Shown here piece by piece: positions 17,905 through 33,526 of a stretch of 49,513 bases of DNA. The stretch's first letter is position 1. Every line of letters starts with the position of its first letter. The DNA comes from Sphingobacteriaceae bacterium (GTDB lineage: Bacteria; Bacteroidota; Bacteroidia; B-17B0; Aurantibacillaceae): contig JAHEYC010000005.1 in assembly GCA_023251775.1 (NCBI GenBank), forward strand, positions 27,869-77,381, written 5' to 3'. The notes below the pieces were generated by a model. That model was given only the letters and a program-made list of their open reading frames with translations. It did no database searches and was not told the DNA's origin. Both the position numbers and the translations under genes were made by a program.

Positions 17905-17912
17905 AATTAAAA

Positions 17913-17960
17913 CAAAGGTAGTATCACAAACAAGGATTGATTGCTACATTTTGTAGTATT
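17913..17960 (-). promoter_or_regulatory. Transposase promoter with recA-like palindromic element
   Basis: On the minus strand a TACCTTTG box (17920-17913) lies 8 nt before the ATG. Upstream, 17960-17936 matches 24 of 25 bases of 33478-33502 before recA, including the palindrome at 17944-17956 (ctaca/tgtag). The palindrome-to-box gap is 23 nt here and 24 nt at recA. Confidence 0.7.
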
Positions 17961-17976
17961 ATTGAATTTATATATC

Positions 17977-18221
17977 GCCCCTACGGGGCTTCTTTAGTAT
18001 TGTGTATTGACGGTTACCAATATTTAGTCCCTACGGGACTAAAAATACAGTCGAAAAATCATGACAAATGATCCCGTTAAAGTTAAATGCACTCTGCATA
18101 GACTATGTCTAAACAATTCCTCTATGACTAGTGCGCAGTTTCGGATTTTCGGATTCTCGATCCCGTAGGGATCAAATATTGGTAATTACACTGCCCTCGA
18201 AAACTTAAGCCCCGTAGGGGC
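17977..18221. repeat. Symmetric cluster of REP-like hairpins (REPIN-like)
   Basis: Four short palindromes form two inverted pairs: gcccctacggggc (17977-17989) with gccccgtaggggc (18209-18221), and tagtccctacgggacta (18025-18041) with gatcccgtagggatc (18159-18173). The flanks are also inverted: ccaatatt precedes the left inner copy and aatattgg follows the right. A further palindrome (18099-18111, tagac/gtcta) lies near the centre. The stretch has no gene and sits next to the transposase, the usual setting of RAYT-associated REPs. Confidence 0.85.
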
Positions 18222-18233
18222 GACATATTGGTT

Positions 18234-19037
18234 TTATGCCTTCGCAAAAAACACATCATATCCATACTTCGCGATCATTATACTTACGATCAGCAAAAAT
18301 ATCTTGCGAATAAACGCATTTCCTTTTTTTAAGGCCATCTTAGATCCTAAATAACTTCCTGCAACGTTGAACACTGCCATAAGAATTGCCATCACTAAAA
18401 TAAATTGCCCATTCTTAATAAAAACGATCAATGCAGATATATTTGTGATGCAATTGATCACTTTGGCATAAGCAGAGGCTGTAACAAATTCAAAACCTAA
18501 CACAACAACAAAAGCTAATACCAAAAAACTTCCGGTGCCGGGACCAAAAAATCCATCGTAAAATCCAATAACCGTTGCAAATAAAGATCCATATACTGCT
18601 TGTTTCCAAAACACCAATGTTTTTGTTTCAACCGAGCCAAGATCTTTTTTGAAAAAAGTATACACAGCAATAATGATCAATATCATTAATATAAAAGGCT
18701 TTAACGATTCGGAATTGATACTGCTTACCGTTTTTGCACCAAAGTACGAGGCAATAAAAGCGAACAACGAAATAATAAAAAGCAAAACAAAATTAAATCG
18801 CACGCGTTGCATATATTGAAACGCGGCCACAGTTGTTCCACTAAAACCCGCAATTTTATTTGTGCCAAACAAAACAGGCAATGGAAGTTTTGGGAAATTA
18901 ATAAGTAAAAATGGGAGGATCACTAATCCCCCACCACCAACTACTGCATCAATAAAACCTGCGGCGAATGAGAATACAGCCAATAAGATCAGCATTACCA
19001 AACCATATTCATTTAATAATGCATTGATCTGGTCCAT
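18234..19037 (-). CDS. TSUP-family permease (TauE/SafE)
   Basis: The 267-residue protein has about eight hydrophobic segments and the family's paired glycine-rich motifs, FIDAVVGGGGLVILPFLL in the first half and GFYDGFFGPGTGSFLVLAF in the second. TSUP proteins move sulfite, sulfonates or other small anions across the inner membrane; the substrate here is not readable. Its ATG overlaps the stop of the histidine-kinase gene (TAATG), so the two are translationally coupled. This pairing suggests that the kinase senses something related to the transported anion. Confidence 0.88.
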   Translation of the reverse strand: MDQINALLNEYGLVMLILLAVFSFAAGFIDAVVGGGGLVILPFLLINFPKLPLPVLFGTNKIAGFSGTTVAAFQYMQRVRFNFVLLFIISLFAFIASYFGAKTVSSINSESLKPFILMILIIIAVYTFFKKDLGSVETKTLVFWKQAVYGSLFATVIGFYDGFFGPGTGSFLVLAFVVVLGFEFVTASAYAKVINCITNISALIVFIKNGQFILVMAILMAVFNVAGSYLGSKMALKKGNAFIRKIFLLIVSIMIAKYGYDVFFAKA

Positions 19038-20233
19038 TACTTCACTGCGAATTTAAGATCGAAGGTAAATCCTTTTTCATTTCCAAATTCGAACTTTGCA
19101 TCTAATTGTTCGGACAACGACCGTATTAAAACAAGACCTAATGTATCCGAGTCCATGCTTTCTTGCTCGGGCAAACCCGGACCATTATCTTTGTACGATA
19201 ACAATACCTCATTATCCACTTGCTTTATCCAAATAGACACACTCAAATTTCCTTTTGGTGTCATAGCATGTTTAAACGAATTGGTGATAAGTTCATTCAA
19301 TATCAAACCACAAGGAATGGCATGCGATAATTCGAGCTCAATAGTTTCGCAATCAAGTGTGATATTTGCTTTTGAAGCACCAACCGATTCGCGCAAGGCA
19401 TTTACAAGATCATTTGAATACTCTTTGAAATTTAGTCGCGTAAAACTTTTTGACGTGTAGATCTTTTGGTGCACTAAAGCCATCGAGAACACACGATTCC
19501 TGCACTCTTCCAAAGCTTCCTGAACTTCAAGTGAAGAAGAACTATTTTTCTTTAAATTCAAAAGGCTTGTAACAATATTCATATTGTTCTTTACCCTATG
19601 AAATACCTCAGCCAGTAATATCTCTTTTTCGTGAAGTATGTTCTTGATGAGTTTTTCTTGCCTTGCGTTCTCAAAAGAAACGGCCGTTACAAATAAAAAG
19701 GTAGTGAACAAGCTAAAAAATAAATTAATGGTCTTGATGTTCTCCATTACATCATCACTGAATTCAACCACTAACCATTGGTGACGCGACCCATAAAGTA
19801 CAACACAAGCCGACGCAAAACCAATGACAAAAATAATGGCCATATGTTTTATCATTTCTTTTTTGCCGAGCAATTGAACAATGATCATCACCAAAGGAAA
19901 ATATAAAAGGAATGCACAAGATGATGGTCCCATTTTTAAATTCAAAGAAGCGAACATTCCAAAGCCTATAGAACAAAAAATATAGGCTGCCCAAACATAT
20001 TTACCTAATCTATTGAATAAAATAACTAAAGGTGCCGATACGATCACTAAAATACAATCCCAATAAAAATTGCTGTAGTTAAAACTATAAAAAACAATAA
20101 GACCAAGTGAAACATTTATCGTGCCTAAAAAAGCCAAGATGTTGAGTTTTCTTATTAAAGCCATTTCCCAGGCTGTGTGATCGGGCCGAGTGCCCGTGTT
20201 GGCGTATGAATTGAGAAGATCTTTGAACGACAT
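19037..20233 (-). CDS. Membrane sensor histidine kinase, HisKA_2 type
   Basis: The 398-residue protein has about six membrane spans (about 28-185), a coiled linker and a HisKA_2 dimerisation domain with phospho-acceptor His212 in EVFHRVKNNMNIVTSLL. The ATPase domain follows, with an N box (LNELITNSFKHA) and G box (DNGPGLP). No periplasmic or PAS sensing domain is present, so the membrane part is the probable sensor. No response regulator is adjacent. It is coupled to the TSUP gene downstream and starts 15 nt after the helicase stop, so all three may be cotranscribed. Confidence 0.9.
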   Translation of the reverse strand: MSFKDLLNSYANTGTRPDHTAWEMALIRKLNILAFLGTINVSLGLIVFYSFNYSNFYWDCILVIVSAPLVILFNRLGKYVWAAYIFCSIGFGMFASLNLKMGPSSCAFLLYFPLVMIIVQLLGKKEMIKHMAIIFVIGFASACVVLYGSRHQWLVVEFSDDVMENIKTINLFFSLFTTFLFVTAVSFENARQEKLIKNILHEKEILLAEVFHRVKNNMNIVTSLLNLKKNSSSSLEVQEALEECRNRVFSMALVHQKIYTSKSFTRLNFKEYSNDLVNALRESVGASKANITLDCETIELELSHAIPCGLILNELITNSFKHAMTPKGNLSVSIWIKQVDNEVLLSYKDNGPGLPEQESMDSDTLGLVLIRSLSEQLDAKFEFGNEKGFTFDLKFAVK

Positions 20234-20248
20234 TAAACTTAGATCATT

Positions 20249-21490
20249 TTAATTTCTTTTGCGATCGTTGCTTTTATTGAAGGGTTTTTTAAAGCCTCCC
20301 TTTTTAAAATTCTTATTTCCTCCTTCAAATTTCCGTTTCGCCTCAGGATCGTATTTTGGAACTGGTCCCATCCCTTCGGGTAAGGATAATTTTGACACTT
20401 CAATTCCCATCAACGCTTCAATTTGACCAAAGCGTTGCATATCTTTTTCGTTGATGAATGTAATGGCAACGCCTTGTTTTGATGCACGCGCTGTTCTCCC
20501 AATTCTATGAATATAATCTTCAGGATCCGGCGGCGCATCATAATTTACAATTAAACTAATTCCATCCACATCAATGCCACGCGATAAAATATCGGTACCA
20601 ATTAAAACTCTTACACGCCTCGCTTTAAAATCGCGCATGATCTCTTCTCGTTCAGTTTGCTCAAGGTCGGAGTGAAATGCTTTGATAGACTTTTCTTTTC
20701 GACTTAAACTTTTTTCCAAGCGCTTTACATTTTCCTTCGTAGAAGAAAAAATAATGACCGACGAAAAATCCTCATTCTTTAATATCTCATGCAACAAAGG
20801 TTCTTTTTGCGCATCGTATAATACATATGCCTGTTGCAAAATTCCTGCAGCCGGTTTACTAATAGCAATATTGATACTTTCGGGTTCATGCAAAATTTGA
20901 TTCGCAAGCAAACGCATTTTTGGTGGCATGGTTGCCGAAAATAAAATAGTTTGACGTTTTTTTGGAAGATAACCAATGATCTGTTTGATATCATCAAAAA
21001 ATCCCATATCCAACATTCTATCCGCTTCATCCAAGACCAAATGTTGTAAATGCTCAAAGTTGATCGACCCATTTTGCAATAATGCTTTTAATCTTCCCGG
21101 AGTTGCTACAACAATATCCACACCATTCTCCATCGATTGCTTTTGATTTTCCCAAGCCATACCATCACTGCCTCCATAAATTGCAATTGAACCAACCGAA
21201 CAAAAATAACCTAAGCCATCTATTTGCTGATCTATTTGCAATGCAAGCTCTCGCGTTGGTGTGATGATGAGTGTATTTAAATGGCGTGTCTCTGCTTTTA
21301 AAATATGTTGAATGATTGGAAGTAAAAATGCTGCAGTTTTTCCTGTCCCTGTTTGCGCACAAGCAACAATATCCTTATTATTTAATATCACAGGCATTGC
21401 CTGCTCTTGAATAGGAGTGGGTTGTTTATAACCCATGCTATATAAACCCTCTAATAGGGATTCTTCAAAGTTAAAGTCGCTGAACGTCAA
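20249..21490 (-). CDS. DEAD-box ATP-dependent RNA helicase
   Basis: All core motifs are visible: Q motif GYKQPTPIQ, Walker A AQTGTGKT, PTRELA, DEAD, SAT and HRIGRTAR, followed by a short basic C-terminus rich in Lys, Asn and Gly. These enzymes unwind structured RNA in ribosome assembly and mRNA decay, often in the cold. I choose the TTG at 21490 (giving MTFSDFNFEESLLEGL, the usual family start). The longer ATG frame from 21541 adds 17 residues, and its coding sequence contains a TATCTTTG promoter box (minus strand 21522-21515) 24 nt before this TTG. Confidence 0.93.
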   Translation of the reverse strand: MTFSDFNFEESLLEGLYSMGYKQPTPIQEQAMPVILNNKDIVACAQTGTGKTAAFLLPIIQHILKAETRHLNTLIITPTRELALQIDQQIDGLGYFCSVGSIAIYGGSDGMAWENQKQSMENGVDIVVATPGRLKALLQNGSINFEHLQHLVLDEADRMLDMGFFDDIKQIIGYLPKKRQTILFSATMPPKMRLLANQILHEPESINIAISKPAAGILQQAYVLYDAQKEPLLHEILKNEDFSSVIIFSSTKENVKRLEKSLSRKEKSIKAFHSDLEQTEREEIMRDFKARRVRVLIGTDILSRGIDVDGISLIVNYDAPPDPEDYIHRIGRTARASKQGVAITFINEKDMQRFGQIEALMGIEVSKLSLPEGMGPVPKYDPEAKRKFEGGNKNFKKGGFKKPFNKSNDRKRN

Positions 21491-21514
21491 TTTAGTATCT
21501 GGTATTAATTCTTG

Positions 21515-21522
21515 CAAAGATA
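21515..21522 (-). promoter_or_regulatory. Predicted -7 box of the helicase gene
   Basis: Minus-strand TATCTTTG, a full match to TAnnTTTG, 24 nt upstream of the proposed TTG start and inside the longer reading frame. Confidence 0.5.
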
Positions 21523-21632
21523 CCATAATTTCCTTAAGCATTTTACTTGCAAAAAAGGCTTATTAACAGTGCTTTCGTGTTAAAAATTACCTTATTTAAC
21601 GCTAATAATTCTATAAAGCCATGGCCTTGTTG

Positions 21633-21640
21633 TAACTTTA
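21633..21640 (+). promoter_or_regulatory. Predicted -7 box 4 nt before a start codon
   Basis: TAACTTTA is followed by gttc and then the ATG at 21645, which predicts a leaderless or nearly leaderless mRNA. Confidence 0.5.
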
Positions 21641-21644
21641 GTTC

Positions 21645-22124
21645 ATGAAACATCTTTCGATACTTGCTTTAGGTTTTGCGACAAGCTTTTCGTTTGCGCA
21701 AGACACGCTTTATACCGTTAGCGGACAAAAAATTCCTGCAAAAGTTGTAGAGATAAATCAAACCGAGATCAAATATAAAAAGGCAAATAATCCTGATGGC
21801 CCTGTTTACGTTGTTGACAAAACCGATATAGCGCTTATTGAATATAAAAATGGCACAAAAGAATTATACGGAACCGGATCGGGTTCTAACGAAGGTGTAA
21901 ATACCGGCGATCAAAGTGTTGCAACAAATGGTCAACAACCAAGATCGCGCGTTAATGTAATTATTGGCGGAGGTTGGGGTTGGGGCTGGCCAATTTTTAA
22001 TAGTTGGGGCTGGTGGGGAGGTTATAATTCTTATCCGCGCGTGCGTTATTACCGACATAGTTATTACCGCCCTTTCCGCGGCGGACATCATCACCGTTAT
22101 CATTACGGCCGAAGAGGAAGATAA
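21645..22124 (+). CDS. Exported glycine/tryptophan-rich protein of unknown function
   Basis: The 159-residue protein has a signal peptide (1-19), a short beta-rich domain (about 20-75, DTLYTVSGQKIPAKVVEIN ... ALIEYKNGTKELY), a polar linker and a low-complexity C-terminus with GWGWGWP, WGWWGGY and many Arg, His and Tyr. The N-terminal domain resembles the small repeats found in Bacteroidota exported proteins that describe a property and its unit of display (xxTVSGxxI...VxEI). I assign no function. It is monocistronic, ending at a strong terminator. Confidence 0.78.
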   Translation: MKHLSILALGFATSFSFAQDTLYTVSGQKIPAKVVEINQTEIKYKKANNPDGPVYVVDKTDIALIEYKNGTKELYGTGSGSNEGVNTGDQSVATNGQQPRSRVNVIIGGGWGWGWPIFNSWGWWGGYNSYPRVRYYRHSYYRPFRGGHHHRYHYGRRGR

Positions 22125-22134
22125 AAAATCTTAG

Positions 22135-22157
22135 AACCACCATACAGGTGGTTTTTT
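22135..22157 (+). terminator. Intrinsic terminator
   Basis: Stem aaccacc (22135-22141) and ggtggtt (22147-22153) with a 5-nt loop, running into a T tract, 10 nt after the stop of the glycine/tryptophan-rich gene. Confidence 0.85.
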
Positions 22158-22194
22158 ATTTTTAGGTAGGAAATTGTATCTTAAGATAAGGATT

Positions 22195-22243
22195 ATAAAA
22201 TCACGCCGATCTTGCTAAATTGATAAGCTTGGGGTGATTTTAT
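22195..22243. repeat. Inverted repeat in a gene-free stretch (22158-22428)
   Basis: The arms ataaaatcac (22195-22204) and gtgattttat (22234-22243) are perfect complements around a 29-nt loop. The surrounding ~300 bp hold no gene. A TATATTTG box at 22270-22277 could start the next gene's transcript with a leader of about 150 nt. Confidence 0.6.
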
Positions 22244-22428
22244 GGCCTATATTTTTGAATAATTTTGATTATATTTGGTGTAATAGGATGATGAAACATA
22301 CTAATATCAAATATCATGCTCCACTTTTGCAATGATGGTTATTTATAGTGTATTCAATAATTATAACTTCCACTGCAATAAGATCAAATGAAATGTCGCA
22401 AGTGAATATTTATTAAAATAGTTTATAC

Positions 22429-25400
22429 ATGAGATCATTTTTTTTCTTTTTAGGCTTTATTACAGTAACCGGTTTTTCCTTTGCTCAAAACTGGAGAGAC
22501 CTGATACAAAAACCTAACGCTAATTTTTATGAGATCCAACGGGAATTTAATATGCATTATAAAGAGAAAGAGGCTCTCAGGGAAAAGGAGGAACATGATA
22601 TAAACGAAGAATCTGATGGATTTGAGGGATTTAAAAGGTGGGAGTATTTTGTTGAACCTCGCGTTTACCCAAGTGGTGATCTTGCTTTATTAAACCAGAC
22701 AGCGAAAAATTTTCAAGATTTTTTGACCAGATATCATGCAGAAGATCCAAATCAAGATCTTCAATTGCAATCAAGAATAGCCGCTCCGGCGGTTTGGACA
22801 CCCATGGGTCCTTTTGGTTCAATTTCCGGGATCAGTGTTGATGGTCAGTATTTGAAAAATGGAAGACTTAATTTTATCACTATTCATCCAAGCAACCCTC
22901 TTCAATTATTTGTTGGGGCGCCGGCCGGCGGACTATGGACATCTACTGATGGAGGAATAAGTTGGACTACAAATACAAACAACCTGCCTGTAATAGGCTG
23001 TTCAGATCTAGCCATAGATCCAATAAATACTAACATTATGTATCTGGCAACCGGCGACGCAGTTCTTGGTAATACACAAAGCATAGGTGTTTTAAGATCA
23101 ACAGACGGAGGCCTTACATGGAACAGTACCGGACCTTTGGGAGGCAATCAAATTAGAAGGCTCATTATTAATCCTGTAAATCCACAAATATTAATTGCCG
23201 CAACAAATACAGGTGTGTACAGAACCTCAAATGGCTGCACAACATGGACCCAGGTTGATTCAAATTGGTTGTGTTATGATCTGGAGTTTCAACCCGGAAA
23301 TCCAAGTATTGTTTATGCGGGTAGTTGGGGTGATTTCAAACGTTCTTCAGACGGAGGTATTACATGGATCCAAATTAGCAATGGTATTCCAAATACCGGA
23401 GTATACAAAATGGCTGTTGCCGTTACTCCGGCCAATCCCAATGTAGTTTACGTTGTGGCCGGAGACAATTCAAATAGCACCTTTCTTGGTTTTTATAAAT
23501 CGTTAGATGCCGGTGTCACTTTTAGTATCATGCCAACTACTTTAAACTTGTTCGGATGGTCTGATACCGGTAATGATCCAGGCGGATCGGCATATCGTCA
23601 AATTGCGGCATCTCCTACTAATTCTAATGAAGTAGTTGTAGGTGCCTTAAATGTTTGGAGAACCCCTGATGGAGGTGGTACTTGGGGTATTTATGGGCAT
23701 TGGCTTGGAACAAACTCTCCATTTATTCATGCCGATCAACAGGATATCGAATTTGATGCAAATGGAACTTTGTACGGAATTAATGATGGTTCAATTTTTA
23801 AAAGGACCGGCTCTACTTGGACAGATATGTCGGTTGGTATGAATATTTCACAAATATATAAGATCGGTACTTCGGCTCTAACACCAAATAAATGGATAAC
23901 CGGGCATCAGGATAATGGTACTCCTATTTATTCAAGCGGTACTTATTCGGCATCTCTTGGTTCGGATGGAATGGACTGCTTTATTGATCGCACAAATGAT
24001 AATAATTTATTTGCATCATGGTATTTTGGAAACTTAAAAAGGTCTGTTAATGGAGGGGCAACTTGGAACGCATACACATCCGGTCTCACACAAATGGGTT
24101 CATGGGTAACTCCATGGAAACAAGATCCTCAATCACCGGGAATAATATATGCTGGATGTACCGACATGTTTAAATCTGTTCTTGCAACCGGAACCTGGAC
24201 ACAAATCGGAACTATTCCGGGAAGCGGCTGGATCACTGAATTTGCAGTTGCCCCTTCGAACAATCTTGTAATTTACGCAGTAAAAGGAGGAACGGCTCCT
24301 GCGATATACAAAACAAATGATGGTGGCGTTTCCTGGAATAATGTTACAGCAACCGTGCCTCTATCGATCACAGCAATGCCCACCTATGTTTTTATTCATC
24401 CAAACACCCCAAACAAAGCTTGGTTAACATTAAGCGGGTATTCTGCCGGAAATAAAATATTTTACACCAATAACGGTGGGGCATCTTGGACCAATGTCAC
24501 AAGTAATCTACCTAATATTCCTGCAAACTGTGGAATATATCAAAACGGAAGTCCTGATAGAATTTATATTGGAATGGATGCCGGAGTTTATTATAAAGAT
24601 AGCCTATCTACAAACTGGACCTTATATAATTCAGGATTGCCAAACACGCCAATTTCGGATATGGAAATTTCTCCTGCTGACCCTAATAAATTGATCGCTT
24701 CTACTTACGGAAGAGGAGTGTGGAAAGTTGACTTAGCAAATCAACCTGTTAGCGCATTTAATTATAATGGTAGTTCCTGCATACTCGATCCGATCCAATT
24801 TAATGACGCCTCAGTTAATAGTCCCACAACATGGAGCTGGAGTGTAACTCCAAATACAGGAATAACGATAAACGCTCCGAATTTGCAAAACCCTTCGATC
24901 ACGTTTGCTAATCCGGGCACATACACTGTAGCTTTATTCACTACAAATAATGTTGGACCCGGCAACATATATACCCAAACAATAACTATAAATCCTTTAC
25001 CAACAGTATATGCTATTACCAGTGCAACACAAGTATGTTTAGATAACGTTGTTTGGCTAACCGGCATTGGAGCAAATACATATACTTGGCAACCACAAAA
25101 TTTAACCGGTAACCCAGTTACCTATACACCAAATGCAACTCAAACATATACTTGTTATGGCACTGATGTTAACGGTTGTATAGGAAAAAAATTACTGACA
25201 GTAAGCGTAAAAATTTGTTCCGGACTATTACAAAACACAGGAGAAACCGTTTTCTTTACTGTATATCCAAACCCGGTTTCTGAGAGTTTAGTAATTACAT
25301 ATCAAACTAGTGGTACTTCAAATGTAACTATTGAACTAAGCGACCCTTTCGGAAAAGTTATATTAAAAAAAGACCATTTATTTAGTAAAAATAATTTCAG

Positions 25401-25500
25401 CACAAATGTTGATATTTCGACACTTGCAAACGGAGTATATTTTATGACCCTAATTCCAAATGAAGGACAGTCTAAAACAATCAAGTTTATCAAAGAATAA
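22429..25500 (+). CDS. Large secreted BNR/sortilin-like propeller protein with PKD-like and T9SS domains
   Basis: The 1023-residue protein has a signal peptide (1-20), a helical N-terminal segment (about 25-115), then many propeller repeats carrying the Asp-box-like STDGGxTW motif (for example LWTSTDGGISW, LRSTDGGLTW, YKTNDGGVSW; about 120-770). An Ig/PKD-like domain follows (about 775-865), then a second small Ig-like domain and a type A sorting domain (VYPNPVSESLVI ... GVYFMTLI ... IKFIKE). Such proteins are surface or extracellular and often bind glycans or other cells; no catalytic residues are evident. It is monocistronic with a long upstream leader. Confidence 0.87.
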   Translation: MRSFFFFLGFITVTGFSFAQNWRDLIQKPNANFYEIQREFNMHYKEKEALREKEEHDINEESDGFEGFKRWEYFVEPRVYPSGDLALLNQTAKNFQDFLTRYHAEDPNQDLQLQSRIAAPAVWTPMGPFGSISGISVDGQYLKNGRLNFITIHPSNPLQLFVGAPAGGLWTSTDGGISWTTNTNNLPVIGCSDLAIDPINTNIMYLATGDAVLGNTQSIGVLRSTDGGLTWNSTGPLGGNQIRRLIINPVNPQILIAATNTGVYRTSNGCTTWTQVDSNWLCYDLEFQPGNPSIVYAGSWGDFKRSSDGGITWIQISNGIPNTGVYKMAVAVTPANPNVVYVVAGDNSNSTFLGFYKSLDAGVTFSIMPTTLNLFGWSDTGNDPGGSAYRQIAASPTNSNEVVVGALNVWRTPDGGGTWGIYGHWLGTNSPFIHADQQDIEFDANGTLYGINDGSIFKRTGSTWTDMSVGMNISQIYKIGTSALTPNKWITGHQDNGTPIYSSGTYSASLGSDGMDCFIDRTNDNNLFASWYFGNLKRSVNGGATWNAYTSGLTQMGSWVTPWKQDPQSPGIIYAGCTDMFKSVLATGTWTQIGTIPGSGWITEFAVAPSNNLVIYAVKGGTAPAIYKTNDGGVSWNNVTATVPLSITAMPTYVFIHPNTPNKAWLTLSGYSAGNKIFYTNNGGASWTNVTSNLPNIPANCGIYQNGSPDRIYIGMDAGVYYKDSLSTNWTLYNSGLPNTPISDMEISPADPNKLIASTYGRGVWKVDLANQPVSAFNYNGSSCILDPIQFNDASVNSPTTWSWSVTPNTGITINAPNLQNPSITFANPGTYTVALFTTNNVGPGNIYTQTITINPLPTVYAITSATQVCLDNVVWLTGIGANTYTWQPQNLTGNPVTYTPNATQTYTCYGTDVNGCIGKKLLTVSVKICSGLLQNTGETVFFTVYPNPVSESLVITYQTSGTSNVTIELSDPFGKVILKKDHLFSKNNFSTNVDISTLANGVYFMTLIPNEGQSKTIKFIKE

Positions 25501-25799
25501 AAGTATAGCAACAATTTGCCTGAGATCCTAAATTTCAATCTGGGTTTCCTTTGTTGTAGTTTTTCAATGGGAGACAAATTCAGGAGAACATCGATTTTGG
25601 TTTCTTGTGATCAGGATTAATAACTTAAGCTTAGGTCTAACCACATAAAGCTGTGTGTATCGACCAAGACTTACCCACAACTGCGGCTTACCATAACTTT
25701 CTTCCATTTCCCAAAATAAGTTAATAACATGCTTTATCTCCGCTTATAACACCATCCTTCCCTTTGAATTAGTTCCTATGATAAGGCATTAAGATTTTG
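25501..25799. other. Gene-free stretch
   Basis: About 300 bp between the propeller gene and the ChaN-like gene. I see no ORF, RNA gene or strong hairpin. Confidence 0.6.
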
Positions 25800-25807
25800 T
25801 AGATTTA
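25800..25807 (+). promoter_or_regulatory. Predicted -7 box of the ChaN-like gene
   Basis: TAGATTTA, 16 nt before the ATG at 25824. Confidence 0.4.
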
Positions 25808-25823
25808 TCATAAATTAAATTCC

Positions 25824-26774
25824 ATGAAAAACCTATTACTTCTTGCTACCGCTGCACTTTTCTTTTCGTTTGCATCTACAAATGACACGCTTACCGAGAA
25901 TAACTATAAAATATATTCTTCAAAAACTTCCAAAGAAGTAACCTTGAATGATATTATTTTAGAAATGAAAAATTACGACGTGGTATTCTTTGGCGAAGAG
26001 CACAATGATTCGGTGGCCCATTTTTTGCAAACGGAATTATTTAAAGGTTTATACGCTTCATATGGTGATAAAACAACGCTCAGCATGGAAATGTTTGAAA
26101 CCGATTGTCAGGTTGTATTAGATGAATATTTACAAGGTTTTATTCGCGAAAAGAATTTTTTTAAAGAAGCCCGTGTATGGAGTAATTACAGAAATTACAA
26201 ACCCATGATAGAATTTGCCAAAGAAAAAAAATTAAGCGTAGTGGCCGGCAACGCTCCCGCAAGATATGTGAACATGGCCGCGCGTAAAGGTTCTAATTCT
26301 CTTAACGAATTATCAGCTAACGCAAAAACATTCTTGCCTCCCTTACCTTATGATACAGCAACCGGCACATACTGGAAAAAATTTACCGATCTGATGTCGG
26401 ATGGAAAAAATGCGGGTATCAGTGCCAAAGACACTTCAAAAAAAGCCGCAGTTGCAGCAAATAGCATGATGCCAAAATATATGGTTCATTCTCAATCGTT
26501 GTGGGATGCAACTATGGCCTACTCTATTAGTAAAGTTTTTGCGAAGAACAGCAATGCTAAAGTTCTTCAATTGAATGGACGTTTTCATAGCGACGAAGGA
26601 TTGGGAACGGTAACACAATTAAAAAAGTACGCGCCAAAACTTCGCATCCTTATTATTTCGTGCATCGACGGAGGAAAAAAATTCCCGAAAGAGATAGATG
26701 TGAACGAGAACAAAAAATTGGGAGATTATGTGATCTACACCGATCCCAATGTACCAAGAACGTATAAGGAGTAA
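25824..26774 (+). CDS. ChaN-family (Tiki/EreA-like superfamily) exported protein
   Basis: The 316-residue protein has a signal peptide (1-18) and the family's metal/haem-site motifs: FGEEHND (Glu58, His60), LSMEMFE, a QSLWDATMA segment and NGRFHSDEGLG. ChaN proteins bind haem or act as Tiki-type metal-dependent proteins at the cell envelope. The usual lipobox cysteine is absent, so this member is probably soluble in the periplasm. It lies 43 nt before an unknown lipoprotein. The family call is firm, the activity is not. Confidence 0.87.
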   Translation: MKNLLLLATAALFFSFASTNDTLTENNYKIYSSKTSKEVTLNDIILEMKNYDVVFFGEEHNDSVAHFLQTELFKGLYASYGDKTTLSMEMFETDCQVVLDEYLQGFIREKNFFKEARVWSNYRNYKPMIEFAKEKKLSVVAGNAPARYVNMAARKGSNSLNELSANAKTFLPPLPYDTATGTYWKKFTDLMSDGKNAGISAKDTSKKAAVAANSMMPKYMVHSQSLWDATMAYSISKVFAKNSNAKVLQLNGRFHSDEGLGTVTQLKKYAPKLRILIISCIDGGKKFPKEIDVNENKKLGDYVIYTDPNVPRTYKE

Positions 26775-26817
26775 TTAGTGTTTTTCAAAACACATTCGCA
26801 CTTATTAAAGTATTAAA

Positions 26818-27255
26818 ATGAAAAAATACTTTTATATACTTATTATTTTTGCGCTTACATTCGCATTAGTTTCTTGTACTCAGGAAAAAGAAACTCCCGA
26901 ACCATTACCAAAAGAACGTGTTAAACATATTCTTGATTCGGTTGGACATTCAAACATTATTGCAACTTTTTACGAAGCGGGTGGCCTTACGGTAATGCAA
27001 TATGAAAATAAAGAAACGAAAAAGGCCCGCAAACTTATTTTTCGTTTGGGCTATCATCTTTTTATTGACAGTCTTACTTATTTAAAACCAAATGAGTTCA
27101 GGTCTCCACGTTTAAATACCAATTATATCATAAAAGATAGCACTGTTATTTCTATTCAACAGGCAAAAATAATCCATCCTTCTTCTAATTGGCAAGGGCA
27201 AACGCCTTGGCAGCAGCCTTATGTTACCATTTATACAAGAGTAGATTCTAAATAA
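26818..27255 (+). CDS. Lipoprotein of unknown function
   Basis: The 145-residue protein has a signal peptide ending in a lipobox-like LVSC (Cys20), followed by an acidic, proline-containing segment. The mature part is beta-rich (about 45-140) with no recognised domain. After the Cys come TQEKET, the acidic run that often directs Bacteroidota lipoproteins. It sits between the ChaN-like gene and a gene for a CX4CH protein; the box TATCTTTA just after its stop suggests that the next gene is transcribed separately. Confidence 0.75.
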   Translation: MKKYFYILIIFALTFALVSCTQEKETPEPLPKERVKHILDSVGHSNIIATFYEAGGLTVMQYENKETKKARKLIFRLGYHLFIDSLTYLKPNEFRSPRLNTNYIIKDSTVISIQQAKIIHPSSNWQGQTPWQQPYVTIYTRVDSK

Positions 27256-27262
27256 ATTTTTG

Positions 27263-27270
27263 TATCTTTA
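27263..27270 (+). promoter_or_regulatory. Predicted -7 box that decides the next start
   Basis: TATCTTTA, 10 nt before the ATG at 27281. It makes the longer TTG frame from 27260 unlikely. Confidence 0.5.
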
Positions 27271-27280
27271 TAACGTACCA

Positions 27281-27859
27281 ATGAAAAAGACATTCATAGT
27301 TTTATCCTTTGCCATTACCTTATTAATGGCTTATGCTGCTGTACCCGGCCCTTCAAGCTCGGGCGCACCGGCTTCGCATACAGGAGCTCCCGGCGAAAAA
27401 ACTTGCGGCGCTGTAGGCTGTCATGATGATAATGTGATAAATGAAGGCACGGCTTCTGTTTCTATTGAGGTTGGAGATGGAATTAAAAAATATGAAGCGG
27501 GACAAACTTATCCTATTAAAATAAGGATCACAGATGCCGATAAACTTCGATTTGGTTTTCAGATCACAGCTTTGAATGCTCAAACACAAACTAACGTAGG
27601 AAATTTTACCATTACCGATACAAAAAGAACTCAAATAGTAAAAAATGCATACCAATTAAAAGAAAGACAATATGCTACCTATACATTTAATGGAACTGAT
27701 GCCGTTACAAAAGGTATTGGCGAATGGTTCGTAAATTGGACCGCTCCAAAAAATTCTACAGAGCCTGTTACATTTTATGTAGGTGCAGTTTCGGCAAATG
27801 ATGATATGAGCGATAAAGGAGATAAAGTATATACAAGCTCATTAACCTTGAACAAATAA
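27281..27859 (+). CDS. Exported Reelin/choice-of-anchor-V-like protein with CX4CH motif
   Basis: The 192-residue protein has a signal peptide (about 1-20) followed by GAPGEKTCGAVGCHDD (Cys42, Cys47, His48), a CX4CH motif, and then a beta-sandwich (about 55-190) with the segments FGFQITAL and WFVNWTAP found in Reelin-like, choice-of-anchor-V proteins. It lacks a sorting domain, unlike the neighbouring paralogue. The CX4CH could hold haem c or another metal. I start at the ATG at 27281 because the signal peptide begins there and a -7 box lies just upstream. Confidence 0.8.
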   Translation: MKKTFIVLSFAITLLMAYAAVPGPSSSGAPASHTGAPGEKTCGAVGCHDDNVINEGTASVSIEVGDGIKKYEAGQTYPIKIRITDADKLRFGFQITALNAQTQTNVGNFTITDTKRTQIVKNAYQLKERQYATYTFNGTDAVTKGIGEWFVNWTAPKNSTEPVTFYVGAVSANDDMSDKGDKVYTSSLTLNK

Positions 27860-27866
27860 AAAGATC

Positions 27867-28745
27867 GTGAAAAATTTGATCGTCATAGCAAGTTTTGTAG
27901 GGTGTTTGTTCATTTGCGGAAGTTATACTACACGTTACATAAAAACATCAGGCTCTCATCCGGGTAGTACAGGTGCTCCACTTGATCTTACGTGCGCGCA
28001 AATGGGTTGCCATACCGATGCTCCGGTTATTTTAAATGCTGTAAATAATAATACACTCATCTTTTCAAGTGTCGATTCTTCTTATGTTCCCGGCGCGACC
28101 TATGTAATTACTGTTCAAGTTCAAGGTTCAGCCGCATCACCAACCGAAAAATTTGGATTTGAAATTGGTGTTTTAAAAGATAACGACAGCACAAACGTTG
28201 GTCAGTTTGCAATTATCGATCCTACACGAACACAGATCATCACGCATCCTATTGGAACAGATCTGCGTTATTCTGTTACACACCAAACATCCGGCACAGC
28301 TTCTCTTTCTACAAATTTTTGTTCGTGGACATTCAGCTGGACAGCCCCACCGGTTAATGAAGGAAAGATCACATTTTGGTATGCAACTATTTGTTCTAAT
28401 AATAATGGCATGGAGACGGGAGATAGAGTTTACTTGCATAAGTTCCAAATTCATCCAAATGCTTTATCGTCCGTTAAAGAAATTTCTGACGATTATGAAT
28501 TAAAAACATTTTTTGATCGTGATGCAAATCAGATCTGCATTAATTATGATCTTAAAGGACAAAGAAATGTACAGTTAACCGTGCTTGATGTGAGTGGAAG
28601 AACCATACATTCGGGAGCGAACATAAAACAAAGCGGCATTCAAAAGCAAAAAATTACATTGGGTTCCAATTATTCAAAAGGAACTTATTTGGTGCAATTA
28701 CAGATCAATGATCAAAAAGTGACAAAAAAACTGATCGTTAATTAA
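27867..28745 (+). CDS. Secreted CX4CH protein with T9SS sorting domain (paralogue of the previous gene)
   Basis: The 292-residue protein begins with GTG at 27867, 7 nt after the previous stop. It has a signal peptide, GSTGAPLDLTCAQMGCHTD (Cys43, Cys48, His49), the same beta-sandwich (FGFEIGVL, WTFSWTAP; about 60-195) and a C-terminal sorting-like domain (about 215-292; VQLTVLDVSGRTI, GTYLVQLQI, KKLIVN). The two genes look like a tandem duplication in which only this copy is routed through type IX secretion. No enzymatic residues are visible; the CX4CH suggests haem or metal binding. Confidence 0.82.
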   Translation: MKNLIVIASFVGCLFICGSYTTRYIKTSGSHPGSTGAPLDLTCAQMGCHTDAPVILNAVNNNTLIFSSVDSSYVPGATYVITVQVQGSAASPTEKFGFEIGVLKDNDSTNVGQFAIIDPTRTQIITHPIGTDLRYSVTHQTSGTASLSTNFCSWTFSWTAPPVNEGKITFWYATICSNNNGMETGDRVYLHKFQIHPNALSSVKEISDDYELKTFFDRDANQICINYDLKGQRNVQLTVLDVSGRTIHSGANIKQSGIQKQKITLGSNYSKGTYLVQLQINDQKVTKKLIVN

Positions 28746-28771
28746 TTTCACTCTAGCTTCACAAATTAATT

Positions 28772-29743
28772 ATGAAATATTTTTGGAGCATTTCTTTTTT
28801 TATTTTCATTTTCACCAGTGCCCAATGCCAGCAAACAAAATTTCTTACGGAGGTAGATAGCTTTGGAAATAACCCCGGAAATTTAAAGATGTTTGTCCAC
28901 TCGCCTTCCTCAACAAATAAATTACCCTTGGTTATTGTTTTACATGGTTGCGGAGAAAGTGCAAAAGCTGTGGCTGAATTAACAGGATGGAATAAATTGG
29001 CCGATCTAAATTGGTTCATCGTTGTTTATCCCCAACAAAAAATACTAAATAATCCCAACTTGTGTTTTAATTGGTTCTCCGAACGCGATAATGAAAAAGG
29101 CAAAGGCGAATGCGAAAGTATTTTTGAAATGATTGTGTTTGCCAAAAAGAATTACGGAATTGACAGTAACAAAATTTTTATCACAGGACTTTCCGCAGGA
29201 GCAGCCATGAGTGTTGTAATGGCAGCCACACATCCCGGACTAATTAAATGCGGGGCCATTTTTGCGGGCGGGGCTTATAAAATTGCCGACGATGCCATAG
29301 ATGGTGTAAAAGCTATGCGTGGAAACAACTATTTTTCAAAAGAAAAATTAGTGAAGGATGTGAAAACACAAAACCCAACTTATAAAGGGAAATATCCTAA
29401 CATGATCATTTACCAAGGACAAACTGATGCGGTGGTAAATAAAAAGAATGCACTTTTTTTAGTGAATCAATGGGCGGGATTAAATAATACCGACACAATT
29501 CCCGATAAAGTTGAACCTAATTATATGAGCGTTAAAGATATTACACGAACAGAATATCATGATTCATTAGGAAGAACACCCGTTATATTATATGAAATAA
29601 ATAATATTGGACATAAATTATTGATAAAACCCGGAGATAAAGAAAATGAAGGCGGAAAAAAAGGTATGTTTGGTATAGATAAAGGATTTCATTCCACCTA
29701 TCAAACCGCAAAAGAATTTGGGATCTTAAAGAAGAAGCAATGA
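28772..29743 (+). CDS. Secreted PHB-depolymerase/feruloyl-esterase-like hydrolase
   Basis: The 323-residue alpha/beta hydrolase has a signal peptide (1-19), the oxyanion-hole segment VIVLHGCGES, nucleophile Ser141 in GLSAGA, a probable catalytic Asp in YQGQTDAVV and a His in NNIGHKL. This is the arrangement of the PHB-depolymerase/feruloyl-esterase family (LpqC-like), which hydrolyses polyesters or phenolic esters outside the cytoplasm. An AQC near the cleavage site is not a good lipobox. The stop overlaps the start of the propeller gene (ATGA). Confidence 0.88.
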   Translation: MKYFWSISFFIFIFTSAQCQQTKFLTEVDSFGNNPGNLKMFVHSPSSTNKLPLVIVLHGCGESAKAVAELTGWNKLADLNWFIVVYPQQKILNNPNLCFNWFSERDNEKGKGECESIFEMIVFAKKNYGIDSNKIFITGLSAGAAMSVVMAATHPGLIKCGAIFAGGAYKIADDAIDGVKAMRGNNYFSKEKLVKDVKTQNPTYKGKYPNMIIYQGQTDAVVNKKNALFLVNQWAGLNNTDTIPDKVEPNYMSVKDITRTEYHDSLGRTPVILYEINNIGHKLLIKPGDKENEGGKKGMFGIDKGFHSTYQTAKEFGILKKKQ

Positions 29744-30783
29744 GAAAAGAAATTTTAGTTATAATCATCAGTATTTTTTTCTTCAAAAGCAGTTTTGCAC
29801 AAGAAACTTTATCGGTATCTCATTTTAATACACTTCCAAAACTTTCTATTCGCGCGTTGGAAGTTGTAAACGATAAAACAGTTTGGTTTGCTGCCAACAG
29901 GGGAGTTTGGGGCTATACCGAAGATTCAGGAAGAACATGGCACATCGATTCTTTAAAAGTGGATAGTATTTATCCGCAATTCAGATCTATGGCGGTATTA
30001 AATGATTCAACCGTTTTACTTTTAGGAATTGCTTCGCCAGCTTATCTTTTAAAAACAATCAATAAAGGAAAAACTTGGAAAGTTGTTTATAAGAACACAC
30101 ATCCCAAAGCGTTTTTTGACAGCATGGTGTTCTATGATAAAAAGAACGGATTTGCCCTTGGAGATCCTATTAACGGAAAAATTATGCTCATCAAAACAAC
30201 TGATGCAGGAGAAACATGGTCTCCCCTAGCCGACGATAAAATAGCATCTTTATCCGAAGGCGAAGCGTGTTTTGCTACAAGCAATACAAATATAGACGTT
30301 CACAAGAACATGTTGTGGTTCATAACGGGCGGAAAACGTTCGCGTTTATTTTATTCGAATAATTTGGGAAAGAGTTTTTTGACTTACAATACCCCCATTC
30401 CCCAAGGCGAAACAATGACAGGACTGTTCTCCTTTGATTTTTTTAATGAGAAGTTAGGAATTGTTACCGGAGGAAATTACGATAAAACAGATACTTCTAT
30501 TGTAAGTTTAGCTCTTACAAAAGATGGCGGTAAAACCTGGCAAGTCATTAAACACTCAAAACCATTTTTCGGAAGTTGCCTGCGTTTTAGAAATGCCACT
30601 GATGTTTTTATAACGGGACATGATGGCACATTTAGATATGATCTCAAAAAACAAAAAATGGAAGAGATCAAAGATGCAGAAGGAGAATCGCTCAAATTTA
30701 TGACACTTCGTTTCTCCCCTTCCGGTAAAGTTGCATGGATGGCAGGAGGAAACGGAAAAATTGCTTTGCTTAAGGGATTTTAA
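29740..30783 (+). CDS. Exported YCF48/BNR-type seven-bladed propeller protein
   Basis: The 347-residue protein has a signal peptide (1-20) and repeated propeller blades with Asp-box-like motifs (TEDSGRTW, TINKGKTW, TTDAGETW, TKDGGKTW), as in YCF48/HCF136-related proteins and sialidase-type propellers. There is no sorting domain. It overlaps the esterase gene by 4 nt, so the two are probably coexpressed and coexported. The role is likely structural or in binding; the family in bacteria is poorly characterised. Confidence 0.86.
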   Translation: MRKEILVIIISIFFFKSSFAQETLSVSHFNTLPKLSIRALEVVNDKTVWFAANRGVWGYTEDSGRTWHIDSLKVDSIYPQFRSMAVLNDSTVLLLGIASPAYLLKTINKGKTWKVVYKNTHPKAFFDSMVFYDKKNGFALGDPINGKIMLIKTTDAGETWSPLADDKIASLSEGEACFATSNTNIDVHKNMLWFITGGKRSRLFYSNNLGKSFLTYNTPIPQGETMTGLFSFDFFNEKLGIVTGGNYDKTDTSIVSLALTKDGGKTWQVIKHSKPFFGSCLRFRNATDVFITGHDGTFRYDLKKQKMEEIKDAEGESLKFMTLRFSPSGKVAWMAGGNGKIALLKGF

Positions 30784-30830
30784 GCAAAAATTCCATGCAG
30801 CTCCGCTGCAAGTTCGCGCTGGCTTTCTTA

Positions 30831-30975
30831 GCCACGAATTTCACTAATTTTCACCAATCTGTGTTTAAAATAATTTCACAAATCTATGTGTAAACTTGGT
30901 TGATCAGCAAACACAGTTTAGTGAAGTGCATTCGGCTACTACACACAGATTGGTGAAATTCGTGTAATTCGTGGC
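30831..30975. repeat. Long imperfect hairpin of CACGAATTT-type units, with small flanking hairpins
   Basis: Arms 30831-30863 and 30944-30975 pair with a few mismatches (gccacgaatt ... accaatctgtg). Short palindromes lie on each side: tgcag-ctccg-ctgca (30796-30810) and ctcggc-gta-gccgag (30988-31002). Together they fill the gap between the propeller gene and the next ORF. No gene is present in 30784-31063. Confidence 0.85.
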
Positions 30976-31063
30976 AAAATACATCGCCTCGGCGTAGCCG
31001 AGCCATTTGGTGTACCCATTTTTTTCAAAATTTTTTGTACCTTGTACAAACAAAAACCAGGTC

Positions 31064-31654
31064 ATGAAAACAAAGAACATTCTTTTGATCATCATCCTTG
31101 TCTTCTCATTCAAGTTATATTCAAAACTTGATACCATCATTGTTTTTACTTCTTATGAGAATTATGTAAATAAAATTGGCACCACCTATGATAAAATGGT
31201 GAATTATTACGGCACTATCAAAATGAAGATCACCGTTTCTAAAAATGCCGTTGAAACAACCATAAAATGTAAAGAGATCTGGGGATTTTTATATAATGGT
31301 CATTTATTTAGAACAGATATTCGCACGGGGCAAGTTGGTGAACTCATTGTTTTGGGAAAAATTTGTTATTACGAAAATGGCATTGCCCATTTGGAAATGA
31401 TACGTAACGGAACCAATCACGAAACTTTTAGCTTGGGATACTATTGTTATGTGTCGAAGGATCTTTCGTCGAAATTAGCGCCTTTCCCTAGTCCTGAGTA
31501 TCCAATATCAGACGCTAATAAGCAAATTAAAAAATTCAAAAGGGCAAATCCCGAGTACGACGATCTATTTAAGGCCATCAATAAAGATTATAATTATCAA
31601 AATGTACGCGCCAAAGTTATTATCTTTAATAGGAATTTTCCTGATGTAAAATAA
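31064..31654 (+). CDS. Exported protein of unknown function
   Basis: The 196-residue protein starts with a signal peptide (MKTKNILLIIILVFSFKLYS). The mature part is predicted beta-rich with no recognised domain; it has a CK, CYY and YYCY cysteine set. I start at the ATG at 31064 because the longer frame from 31007 prefixes an unrelated segment and contains a TACCTTGT promoter-like box (31038-31045) 18 nt before this ATG. It lies between a hairpin-rich spacer and a small lipoprotein gene. Confidence 0.72.
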   Translation: MKTKNILLIIILVFSFKLYSKLDTIIVFTSYENYVNKIGTTYDKMVNYYGTIKMKITVSKNAVETTIKCKEIWGFLYNGHLFRTDIRTGQVGELIVLGKICYYENGIAHLEMIRNGTNHETFSLGYYCYVSKDLSSKLAPFPSPEYPISDANKQIKKFKRANPEYDDLFKAINKDYNYQNVRAKVIIFNRNFPDVK

Positions 31655-31656
31655 AC

Positions 31657-31664
31657 TACCTTTA
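31657..31664 (+). promoter_or_regulatory. Predicted -7 box 4 nt before a start codon
   Basis: TACCTTTA overlaps the end of the preceding gene's trailer and is followed by tcaa and the ATG at 31669, predicting a leaderless mRNA. Confidence 0.5.
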
Positions 31665-31668
31665 TCAA

Positions 31669-32046
31669 ATGAGAGCTAGATCACTTATCATACTTTTTTT
31701 AATTTCCCTTCTTACCACCGATTGCAAAAAAGGCGATACAGGCGGCGATGCAACCGTTACAGCGTTTGTAATGCATCATAGTAAAGCCATTAATTTTCCA
31801 ACGGTTTATGTAAAGTTTGATGCGAAAGATCTTCCAAGCGATCCCACAACTAATTATGATCTAAAATTGGTTGGCGTGGACGAAAATCATGTTCACATTA
31901 AGAACTTACGCTACGGTAATTATTATTTATATGCCGTTGGATTCGACAGCTCTATAATGCTTCCTGTTAATGGTGGAATTCCTTTAACTATCAATTGGAA
32001 GAACAGACGTAATGCAGTTGATGTTACTGTACCCGTTACCGAATAG
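31669..32046 (+). CDS. Small lipoprotein with a beta-sandwich domain, unknown function
   Basis: The 125-residue protein has a signal peptide with a lipobox-like LTTDC (Cys19) followed by KKGD, as in many Bacteroidota lipoproteins. The mature part looks like a small carboxypeptidase-regulatory or transthyretin-like sandwich (VYVKFDAKDLP ... YDLKLVGVDENHVHIKNLRYGNYYLYAVG). It is convergent with another tiny lipoprotein gene 2 nt beyond its stop. No function is assigned. Confidence 0.75.
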   Translation: MRARSLIILFLISLLTTDCKKGDTGGDATVTAFVMHHSKAINFPTVYVKFDAKDLPSDPTTNYDLKLVGVDENHVHIKNLRYGNYYLYAVGFDSSIMLPVNGGIPLTINWKNRRNAVDVTVPVTE

Positions 32047-32048
32047 GT

Positions 32049-32249
32049 TTATTCTAATTCGCAAGCCGTGTAGCTTCCTACAGCCTTGGCTTTGCACTCT
32101 TCATCCGCTTTTTTCTTAGTTGTTTTAATGATCACATGTTCGTGAGCACCTGCTGCGGTGTGACAGCTGCATTCGTAATCTTTTTTGCAAGATATAAGAA
32201 CTACAGTACTAAAAAAGGCTAAGGTAATTAAGATGGAAGATCGTTTCAT
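32049..32249 (-). CDS. 66-residue cysteine- and lysine-rich lipoprotein
   Basis: This short protein has a signal peptide ending in a LISC lipobox (about residue 21), then KKDYECSCH and a second half with KKKADEECKAKA and TACELE. Four cysteines in the mature part could form two disulfides or bind metal. Small lipoproteins of this SCKKDYxCxC type are common and uncharacterised in Bacteroidota. It is convergent with the preceding lipoprotein gene. A TATATTTA box lies 19 nt upstream (minus strand 32276-32269). Confidence 0.7.
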   Translation of the reverse strand: MKRSSILITLAFFSTVVLISCKKDYECSCHTAAGAHEHVIIKTTKKKADEECKAKAVGSYTACELE

Positions 32250-32330
32250 TATTGAAGATTTAATACTGTAAATATAATAAATTTAAATTGTTGCCTTTTA
32301 TATATTTTCCTAAATTCGTTATTCCTATCT

Positions 32331-33263
32331 ATTAAAACAAAAACTAAAATACTCATAGCAGGCCTTGGCGGCGTTGGCGGTTACTTTGGCGGACTGATGG
32401 CAAAACAATTTCACAAAAATGCGGAAGTTGAAATTTGTTTTTTAGCAAGAGGCAAACATTTGCAAGCAATAAAAGATAAAGGCCTAAAAATACTAAAAGG
32501 CACTAGCGAATTTAATGCGATTCCATATTTAGCGAGTGATGATCCAAAAGAACTAGGTATTGCAAATTATATTCTCATTTGCACAAAGACCTACGATCTA
32601 AATTCCATTATTGAACAATTAAAGCCTTGCATTGATGAACACACTATTATTTTACCTTTATTAAATGGCGTTGACGGTTTCGAAAAAATAAAAAAACTCT
32701 TACCTCATAATACAATTTTGAACGGATGCGTATATATTGTATCACGTTTAAAAGAAGCAGGCGTAATAGAGAACAGTGGCAATATTGAAACACTTTATTT
32801 TGGAATTGATGGGAGTCCCGGCAAAGAATTGCAAACGCTTGAAACATTATTTAAACAAGCCGGTATTGAAGCCACACTCTCACCAAACATTTCTTCTATC
32901 GTTTGGGAAAAATTTATTTTTATTTCACCAACGGCTACGGCCACTTCTTATTTTAATACTTGCATTGGCGAAATTGTGGCCGATGAAAAAAAATTGACTG
33001 TCTTTACGCACTTAGTAGAGGAAGTAAAACAAATTGCATTAAAAAAGAAAATTGCCATTTCACCCGACATTTCCGAAAAAACCCTCGCCAAATTAAAAAA
33101 ACTTCCTTTCGACACTACGTCCTCTATGCATTCGGATATAAAGAACAACAAAACCCAAACCGAAGTAGAAGCACTCACCGCTTATGTTGTTGATGAAGCC
33201 AAAAGATATGGTATTGCTGTTCCAACTTATGAAATGGCTTATAAAGCATTAAAAAGAAAATAG
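32331..33263 (+). CDS. panE: Ketopantoate reductase family (PanE/ApbA), probable ATT start
   Basis: A two-domain NADPH-dependent reductase: the N-terminal Rossmann motif GLGGVGGYFGG, a C-terminal helical domain with the family lysine region (SSIVWEKFI) and the segment SSMHSDIKNNKTQTEVEAL near the end. PanE reduces 2-dehydropantoate to pantoate for coenzyme A. The first in-frame ATG (32397) falls inside the glycine-rich motif, so it cannot be the start. No ATG, GTG or TTG lies upstream in frame. ATT at 32331 gives the expected six-residue lead (KTKTKILIAG) and sits 12 nt after a TAAATTCG box. Confidence 0.85.
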   Translation: MKTKTKILIAGLGGVGGYFGGLMAKQFHKNAEVEICFLARGKHLQAIKDKGLKILKGTSEFNAIPYLASDDPKELGIANYILICTKTYDLNSIIEQLKPCIDEHTIILPLLNGVDGFEKIKKLLPHNTILNGCVYIVSRLKEAGVIENSGNIETLYFGIDGSPGKELQTLETLFKQAGIEATLSPNISSIVWEKFIFISPTATATSYFNTCIGEIVADEKKLTVFTHLVEEVKQIALKKKIAISPDISEKTLAKLKKLPFDTTSSMHSDIKNNKTQTEVEALTAYVVDEAKRYGIAVPTYEMAYKALKRK

Positions 33264-33278
33264 TCCTGTGTTTTAATT

Positions 33279-33401
33279 GCCACGGAGGCACGGAGACACG
33301 GAGAAGATCTATTATACTTTAATAAGACCAATGATATTGCTATATGTTTCCAATTTTATGTGTTATACCAAAAAAACTCCGCGCCTCCGCGTCTCCGTGG
33401 C
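33279..33401. repeat. Long imperfect hairpin of CACGGAG-type units
   Basis: Arms 33279-33303 and 33377-33401 pair with few mismatches (gccacggag ... ctccgtggc), built from repeated CACGGAG/A units around a ~70-nt AT-rich loop. It lies between panE and recA and is followed by an A tract. It resembles the other reiterated-unit hairpins of the window. Confidence 0.85.
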
Positions 33402-33477
33402 CAAAAAAAAGCCGAAAATTCTGTTAAATTCATAAATTTTTGCCTCTGGAACCCCTGTAAAATGGGCTATTTTAAAA

Positions 33478-33526
33478 AATACTACAAATTGTAGCAATCA
33501 ATTGCTATAAAACGGGCATACCTTTG
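33478..33526 (+). promoter_or_regulatory. Upstream recA promoter with palindromic element
   Basis: The perfect palindrome ctacaa-a-ttgtag (33482-33494) lies in a 25-bp block shared with the transposase promoter. It is followed after 24 nt by TACCTTTG (33519-33526), a full TAnnTTTG match. By position it is a candidate damage-response operator. Confidence 0.65.

Follow-up and report, generated by a model that had tools for sequence, protein, structure and literature searches.

The window analysed here is a stretch of 49,513 nucleotides from the genome of a Sphingobacteriaceae bacterium (assembly GCA_023251775.1, contig JAHEYC010000005.1, positions 27,869 to 77,381). It carries recA and a gene for a Y1 (HUH) transposase, and the same short block of DNA stands upstream of both. 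The block is most likely an operator of the form CTAY-N5-RTAG together with adjoining promoter sequence, as predicted from its letters and placement. We consider it highly probable that this operator belongs to a non-canonical LexA, under which recA, repair genes, and Y1 transposases would be repressed and then jointly induced by DNA damage. On this evidence, the bacterium most likely responds to DNA damage by turning on its transposases. The SOS reading is supported by comparative genomics.

Predicted operator and promoter upstream of recA and the transposase gene

The block is 25 bp long. It lies at 33478–33502 on the plus strand and, with one mismatch between the copies, at 17936–17960 on the minus strand, exactly where the preliminary description had placed it. 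The distances given there were also accurate. From the block to the −7 box there are 16 nt before recA and 15 nt before the transposase gene, and from the palindrome to the box 24 and 23 nt. The elements are as follows (matrix scores in bits; the matrix is described in the next section).

33479..33497, plus strand: predicted recA operator ATACTACAAATTGTAGCAA, core CTAC-N5-GTAG at 33482–33494; matrix score 23.8, the top site of the window
33505..33517, plus strand: putative second recA operator, degenerate, left half CTATAAA kept; proposed from sequence and spacing
33519..33526, plus strand: recA −7 box, TACCTTTG
33650..34720, plus strand: recA, 356 amino acids; PF00154 (E 3.7e-137), PF21096 (E 4.7e-25)
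17941..17959, minus strand: predicted operator of the transposase gene, ATACTACAAAATGTAGCAA; matrix score 22.2, the second of only two window sites at or above 8
17913..17920, minus strand: −7 box for the transposase gene, TACCTTTG, 8 nt ahead of the ATG
17443..17904, minus strand: Y1 (HUH) transposase, 153 amino acids; PF01797 (Y1_Tnp, E 1.8e-29); motifs DHVH, WQ, and YIQNQEIHH

TAnnTTTG is the −7 consensus of Bacteroidetes promoters. It starts 20–21 nt past the 19-mer in 14 of the 21 operator rows of this genome, thus suggesting that the operator covers the −33 position. The degenerate second operator of recA begins 23 bp after the first, a spacing also seen between the two operators in tandem before the repressor gene. 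The −7 box of the transposase gene stands very close to the start codon (window 17904–17920), and the corresponding box lies 4–7 nt before the ATG in the promoters of the DUF2851, radical-SAM, GxxExxY, recombinase, and dinD genes and of the Y1 gene C25. Because of this closeness, messages from these promoters may be nearly leaderless.

Two near-identical copies in one window resemble a repeat, and one could take the block for a dispersed repeat or for a match by chance. This is extremely improbable. Beyond these two copies, the window holds no other at up to three mismatches, and 100 shuffles gave none. The core CTACANNNTGTAG is present twice in the window (17944–17956 and 33482–33494) against 0.02 expected, and in the whole 3.6-Mb genome (144 contigs) the exact TACTACAAANTGTAGCAAT is found at these two places only. 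Sequence beyond the operator and promoter differs between the copies, and none would be expected by chance. A promoter-linked pattern, in which the operator is followed by TAnnTTTG at the right spacing, gave 191 matches in total when the 87 genomes of the order were searched. They fall in 59 genomes, all of one family, and the reversed control gave 0. The shuffles, the whole-genome search, and the reversed-pattern control rule out both readings, including the repeat without any link to damage genes that the preliminary description had itself raised against its proposal.

The S24 repressor and its predicted operators

CTAC-N5-GTAG has the 4-5-4 geometry of CTAA-N5-TTAG, the operator of the non-canonical Bacteroidetes LexA, and for this reason a repressor was looked for. 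A PF00717 profile search of the genome returned one S24 protein only, of 255 amino acids, with HTH_3 (E 5.9e-13) and Peptidase_S24 (E 1.3e-7) domains. Its promoter contains CTATAAATTATAG and CTATAAATTGTAG, two sites in tandem at a distance of 23 bp. The suggestion of a common regulator, plausibly of the SOS response, thus gains support, since two copies of the same site stand upstream of the one S24 LexA/CI-like repressor that the genome was found to encode. Tandem sites within 110 bp are present in the repressor promoters of 27 of 30 genomes. The scissile A106-G107 pair and the S143, K182 dyad are invariant in 30/30 repressor proteins, our own included.

The LexA winged-helix DNA-binding model is not among the domain matches of the repressor. 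A search of Protein Data Bank sequences with the repressor gave matches to its helix-turn-helix (HTH) part only. The LexA-like regulator that had been anticipated is therefore present as a non-canonical, CI-type S24 protein, and not as a classical LexA. We assign it, as probable, to the non-canonical Bacteroidetes LexA type, likening it by its features to the published proteins. The published system, with CTAA-N5-TTAG as operator, rests on gel shifts and on induction with mitomycin (Sanchez-Osuna et al. 2021, PMC8565304), and a diverged motif, TTAC-AAATT-GTAA, was confirmed by gel shift (PMC8565304). The likeness to the LexA of PMC8565304 extends to an S24 protease with a CI-type HTH, a scissile Ala-Gly, a Ser-Lys dyad, self-regulation, a 4-5-4 palindrome, and recA and splB-type genes as targets.

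As a genome motif, CTAC-N5-GTAG alone was rejected. Of its 14 genomic places, most are inside genes and one is in ribosomal RNA (rRNA); the sites of the repressor itself were therefore used to broaden it. Looser patterns allowing 3 mismatches were noisy (40+39 matches against 48+48 in the reversed control for one, and 56+53 against 26+26 for another), and later counts therefore rest on the promoter-linked pattern and on a 19-column matrix. Repressor promoters alone served to train the matrix (40 distinct sites from 30 genomes); one odd training site, of 6.6 bits and from G011, was left in. Scanning the window with it returned two sites at or above 8 bits, exactly those of recA and the transposase gene. 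In promoters, a site was counted at 14 bits or more within 300 bp upstream. Such sites were found for the repressor in 30/30 genomes, which is the training set itself, and for recA in 29/30, our own included. Of the 111 sites at or above 14 bits in 365,125 bp, 109 fall in the tested promoters.

Site and repressor go together on the whole, judged by the upstream sequences. Among 24 further upstreams of repressor-like genes, 14 have CTAY at 14 bits or more, 5 have CTAA-N5-TTAG, 2 (paralogues) have another palindrome, and 3 have none. The five are those of the sister genus g9, whose repressor homologues are 52–57% identical and carry CTAA-N5-TTAG in 5/5 promoters read; it also stands in 3/3 g9 recA upstreams read. 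In the genus g2, the repressor is present in 0/4 genomes and the recA operator in 0/4. The operator thus varies within one family, with CTAA-N5-TTAG in g9 and CTAY-N5-RTAG in the other repressor-bearing genera, while the repressors are homologous. In two genomes, a paralogue of the repressor (49% identical) carries at its start codon a palindrome of its own, TTGATACAAATTGTATCAA (ATAC-AAATT-GTAT).

Genes behind the operator

The preliminary description had proposed looking for the site before lexA-like and uvr genes. In this genome, promoter-placed sites stand before the repressor gene, recA, uvrB, dinD, radA, dprA, yifB/comM, and four Y1 genes, and a PA0069-type radical-SAM gene has two in its promoter. 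The set contains core SOS genes in recA, uvrB, dinD, the radical-SAM gene, and radA. Further sites precede a XerA/integron-integrase-like recombinase gene (the match is just under the curated cut-off), a DUF2851 gene, and a GxxExxY PD-(D/E)XK gene; an rRNA-IVP-like gene has one 209 bp upstream. Weaker sites also occur inside genes and ahead of unnamed genes. In relatives, the site is found before genes for IMS-type polymerases and a RecQ-like helicase (DEAD in Pfam, RecQ by eye) and before an ImuA-like gene lying divergently to recA; the preliminary description had also proposed to look at imuA and dinB genes.

For the genus g8, we took a census of 60 of the 67 promoter-linked matches (the 6 of G043 and one of G015 were omitted), and 58 of the 60 gave a gene model; the models were chosen by script within 260 nt, and some may be wrong. 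Among the 25 Pfam families listed, of 37 matched, are Y1_Tnp (7), GIY-YIG (7), ORF6N (7), DUF559 (5), RecA (5), the RadA-type zinc ribbon (4), PDDEXK_3 (2), radical SAM (2), and HigB-like (2), with single cases of IMS polymerase, HigB, Vsr, DEAD helicase (RecQ-like by eye), and RhuM. At least 6 of the 7 Y1 genes of this census are already within the 73 considered below. Another 29 genes, taken from 30 loci of the promoter-linked search, gave RecA 4, RadA-type 3, IMS 2, radical SAM 2, ORF6N 2, and Y1 1 (our own genome). From these families, the gene set holds many solitary nucleases besides repair genes. The solitary GIY-YIG, DUF559/Vsr, ORF6N, and HigB-type genes behind g8 operators suggest a rotating pool of small nuclease or mobile genes under SOS control.

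RecA, DprA, ComM/YifB, and RadA are four proteins of transformation recombination, and the genes of all four have the site. The palindrome could then belong to another regulator, for example of natural transformation, acting over recA, dprA, comM, and radA, with the S24 repressor merely one of its targets. We regard this as very unlikely. Tandem sites stand in the repressor's own promoter, and from one repressor lineage to another the site changes too. UvrB, DinD, and the IMS polymerases are damage proteins, and no uptake gene such as comEC was seen among the sites read, though no search by name was made. An operator common to DprA, ComM/YifB, RadA, and RecA also hints that uptake recombination is damage-inducible in this organism.

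The transposase genes were sampled across the family. There were 107 Y1 matches in 61 genomes, and 73 upstreams were read; the 34 left out were mostly partial or weak, and one of them (G015:C29) was later found to carry a site. All four Y1 genes of our genome have a site at 14 bits or more. In the relatives, 14 of 69 upstreams reach 14 bits. Together these make 18/73, compared with 1/115 control upstreams (Fisher P 1.2e-7, with related genes not independent). The single control match is an ImuA-like gene (ImuA model E 3e-19, below the curated cut-off). The controls were 126 upstreams, less 11 that share a target's own promoter site; an earlier version gave 11/79, which we read as the same promoter sharing.

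These transposase genes may instead have arisen or landed beside SOS promoters, and the operator would then be a passenger kept without functional use. Its patchy distribution is compatible with this. The operator label (at least 13 bits, 19/73 rows), mapped on the Y1 tree, requires at least 11 changes, 7 of them forced by well-supported branches, and most of the relatives' Y1 genes read have no site. We nevertheless hold this to be very unlikely. In one genome, each of four divergent Y1 genes has a site of its own, in the same place and with a complete promoter. Unused sites should decay to middling scores, yet between 5 and 14 bits there is one upstream among the 69, just under 14, and the other 54 below the threshold score under 5.

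Several observations weigh against control by the S24 repressor as proposed. The locus of the genome's single IMS-family (dinB-type) gene is without a site at or above 12 bits. One of the 30 genomes lacks the site at recA. Beyond those, 16 further recA upstreams divide into 4 with CTAY (G003, G034, G044, and G060), 3 with CTAA-N5-TTAG, and 9 with neither. Five of the nine, from g4, g7, and g10, are siteless although the repressor there keeps CTAY; the other four are from g2. Three distant repressor homologues (39–42% identical) have no site. Most of the relatives' Y1 upstreams read (55 of 69) score below 14, and CTAA-N5-TTAG was found in 0/3 g9 Y1 upstreams read, so the transposase link is not shown in g9. 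The CTAY site is also absent from all 57 scored Y1 loci of other named groups, drawn from the best 80 of 420 relatives (Bacteroidota, Chlorobi/Ignavibacteria, and one further bacterium); 23 weaker loci were dropped (archaea, cyanobacteria, Firmicutes, and one Bacteroidales). Five of the 57 have one CTAA, GGA, or TTAC core each, 173–261 bp upstream, which we take as chance; the 73 family Y1 upstreams contain 2 CTAA or TTAC cores. Exact TAnnTTTG is absent from some promoters of our genome (uvrB and comM). Lastly, the fourth dyad base of the operator is C or T here, whereas the published CTAA-N5-TTAG has A (PMC8565304). We treat CTAY-N5-RTAG as a variant because PMC8565304 itself reports diverged motifs.

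Y1 transposases and the proposed SOS control

The preliminary description had called the window protein a REP transposase. Its motifs DHVH, WQ, and YIQNQEIHH instead match the TnpA-Y1 subclass 1.2 signature DH[IV]H, WQ, Y---Q--HH (PMC6006769), and it has YIQNQ in place of the Y..NP catalytic motif of TnpA-REP (class 2 RAYT). Subclass 1.2 is a low-copy group without insertion-sequence properties, for which no typical terminal structures are given (PMC6006769). The genome holds 4 Y1 genes, none near-identical, which fits such a low-copy group. The Y1 gene C94 encodes NHLH and YIHNNP, as in TnpA-REP subclass 2.6 (PMC6006769). REP-like repeats do, however, adjoin the window gene:

17975..18235, no strand: REP-like palindrome cluster upstream of the transposase gene; CCCGTAGGG cores at 17979, 18029, 18162, and 18211

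REP-like palindromes adjoin two Y1 genes of this kind, C33 and C25, the latter on both sides. The form CCCGWAGGG-N5-ATATTGG has 59 genome matches at up to 2 mismatches, with 0 in the reversed control. Members of the family lie at window 17979–18219, at C25, C4, C8, and C85, and elsewhere, often grouped in both orientations. Y1 gene and recA lie some 3 kb apart in G031, 8 kb apart in G022, and 15.7 kb apart here.

We propose the following mechanism. In undamaged cells, a repressor dimer on CTAY-N5-RTAG over −33 would block RNA polymerase at the promoters of the repressor gene, recA, uvrB, dinD, radA, dprA, comM, and the four Y1 transposase genes. Damage would yield single-stranded DNA and RecA filaments, and the repressor would then cleave itself between Ala106 and Gly107 by means of Ser143/Lys182. 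Its cleavage would switch the whole set on together. For repression over −33, RecA-triggered cleavage, and joint induction, we argue by analogy with the published system and from the residues conserved here. HUH transposases act on single-stranded hairpins and would be made when their substrate is abundant; their place in the set is suggested by single-stranded DNA being both the SOS signal and the HUH substrate.

The nearest precedent is the control of ISCR HUH transposases by LexA in E. coli (PMC13393415), where an HUH transposase gene is likewise under an SOS repressor and the protein is made under damage. That case differs in having a canonical LexA, the operator CTGT-N8-ACAG, and IS91-related elements, with 3 ISCR types compared with the Y1 genes of one genome here (PMC13393415). 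Unlike those of the LexA of PMC8565304, as there presented, the targets here include Y1 transposases, DprA, and ComM and, in relatives, GIY-YIG, DUF559, and ORF6N genes; the word "transposase" is absent from that paper's main text. The terms SOS, LexA, and DNA damage have 0 occurrences in the main text of PMC6006769, which sets out the TnpA-Y1 and TnpA-REP classes, and the rayT row of PMC7606416 lists Sigma70 only. No description of SOS-controlled Y1/REP transposases was found in the titles and abstract openings of the papers listed in searches of the open-licence literature. The regulator type is already known. As far as searched, the novelty lies in the operator's shift and in Y1 transposases and other small nucleases having been recruited repeatedly.

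A wider reading, which we offer tentatively and think rather doubtful, is that, in this Bacteroidota family, a changing pool of solitary small nucleases and ORF6N genes is governed by the SOS repressor. The pool would comprise Y1/HUH proteins of subclasses 1.2 and 2.6, GIY-YIG, DUF559/Vsr-like, PD-(D/E)XK, and ORF6N members, which would have acquired the same operator-promoter repeatedly. On this reading, the damage response would have recruited the Y1 proteins as components, and they would not be merely selfish. If this is true, their targets would be single-stranded hairpins where DNA is broken or stalled, which would give orphan transposases a first physiological setting.

In this family, an SOS operator has seemingly been caught changing between CTAA-N5-TTAG and CTAY-N5-RTAG, along with its repressor. 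For host-borne Y1/REP transposases, the shared operator would provide a direct and testable trigger.

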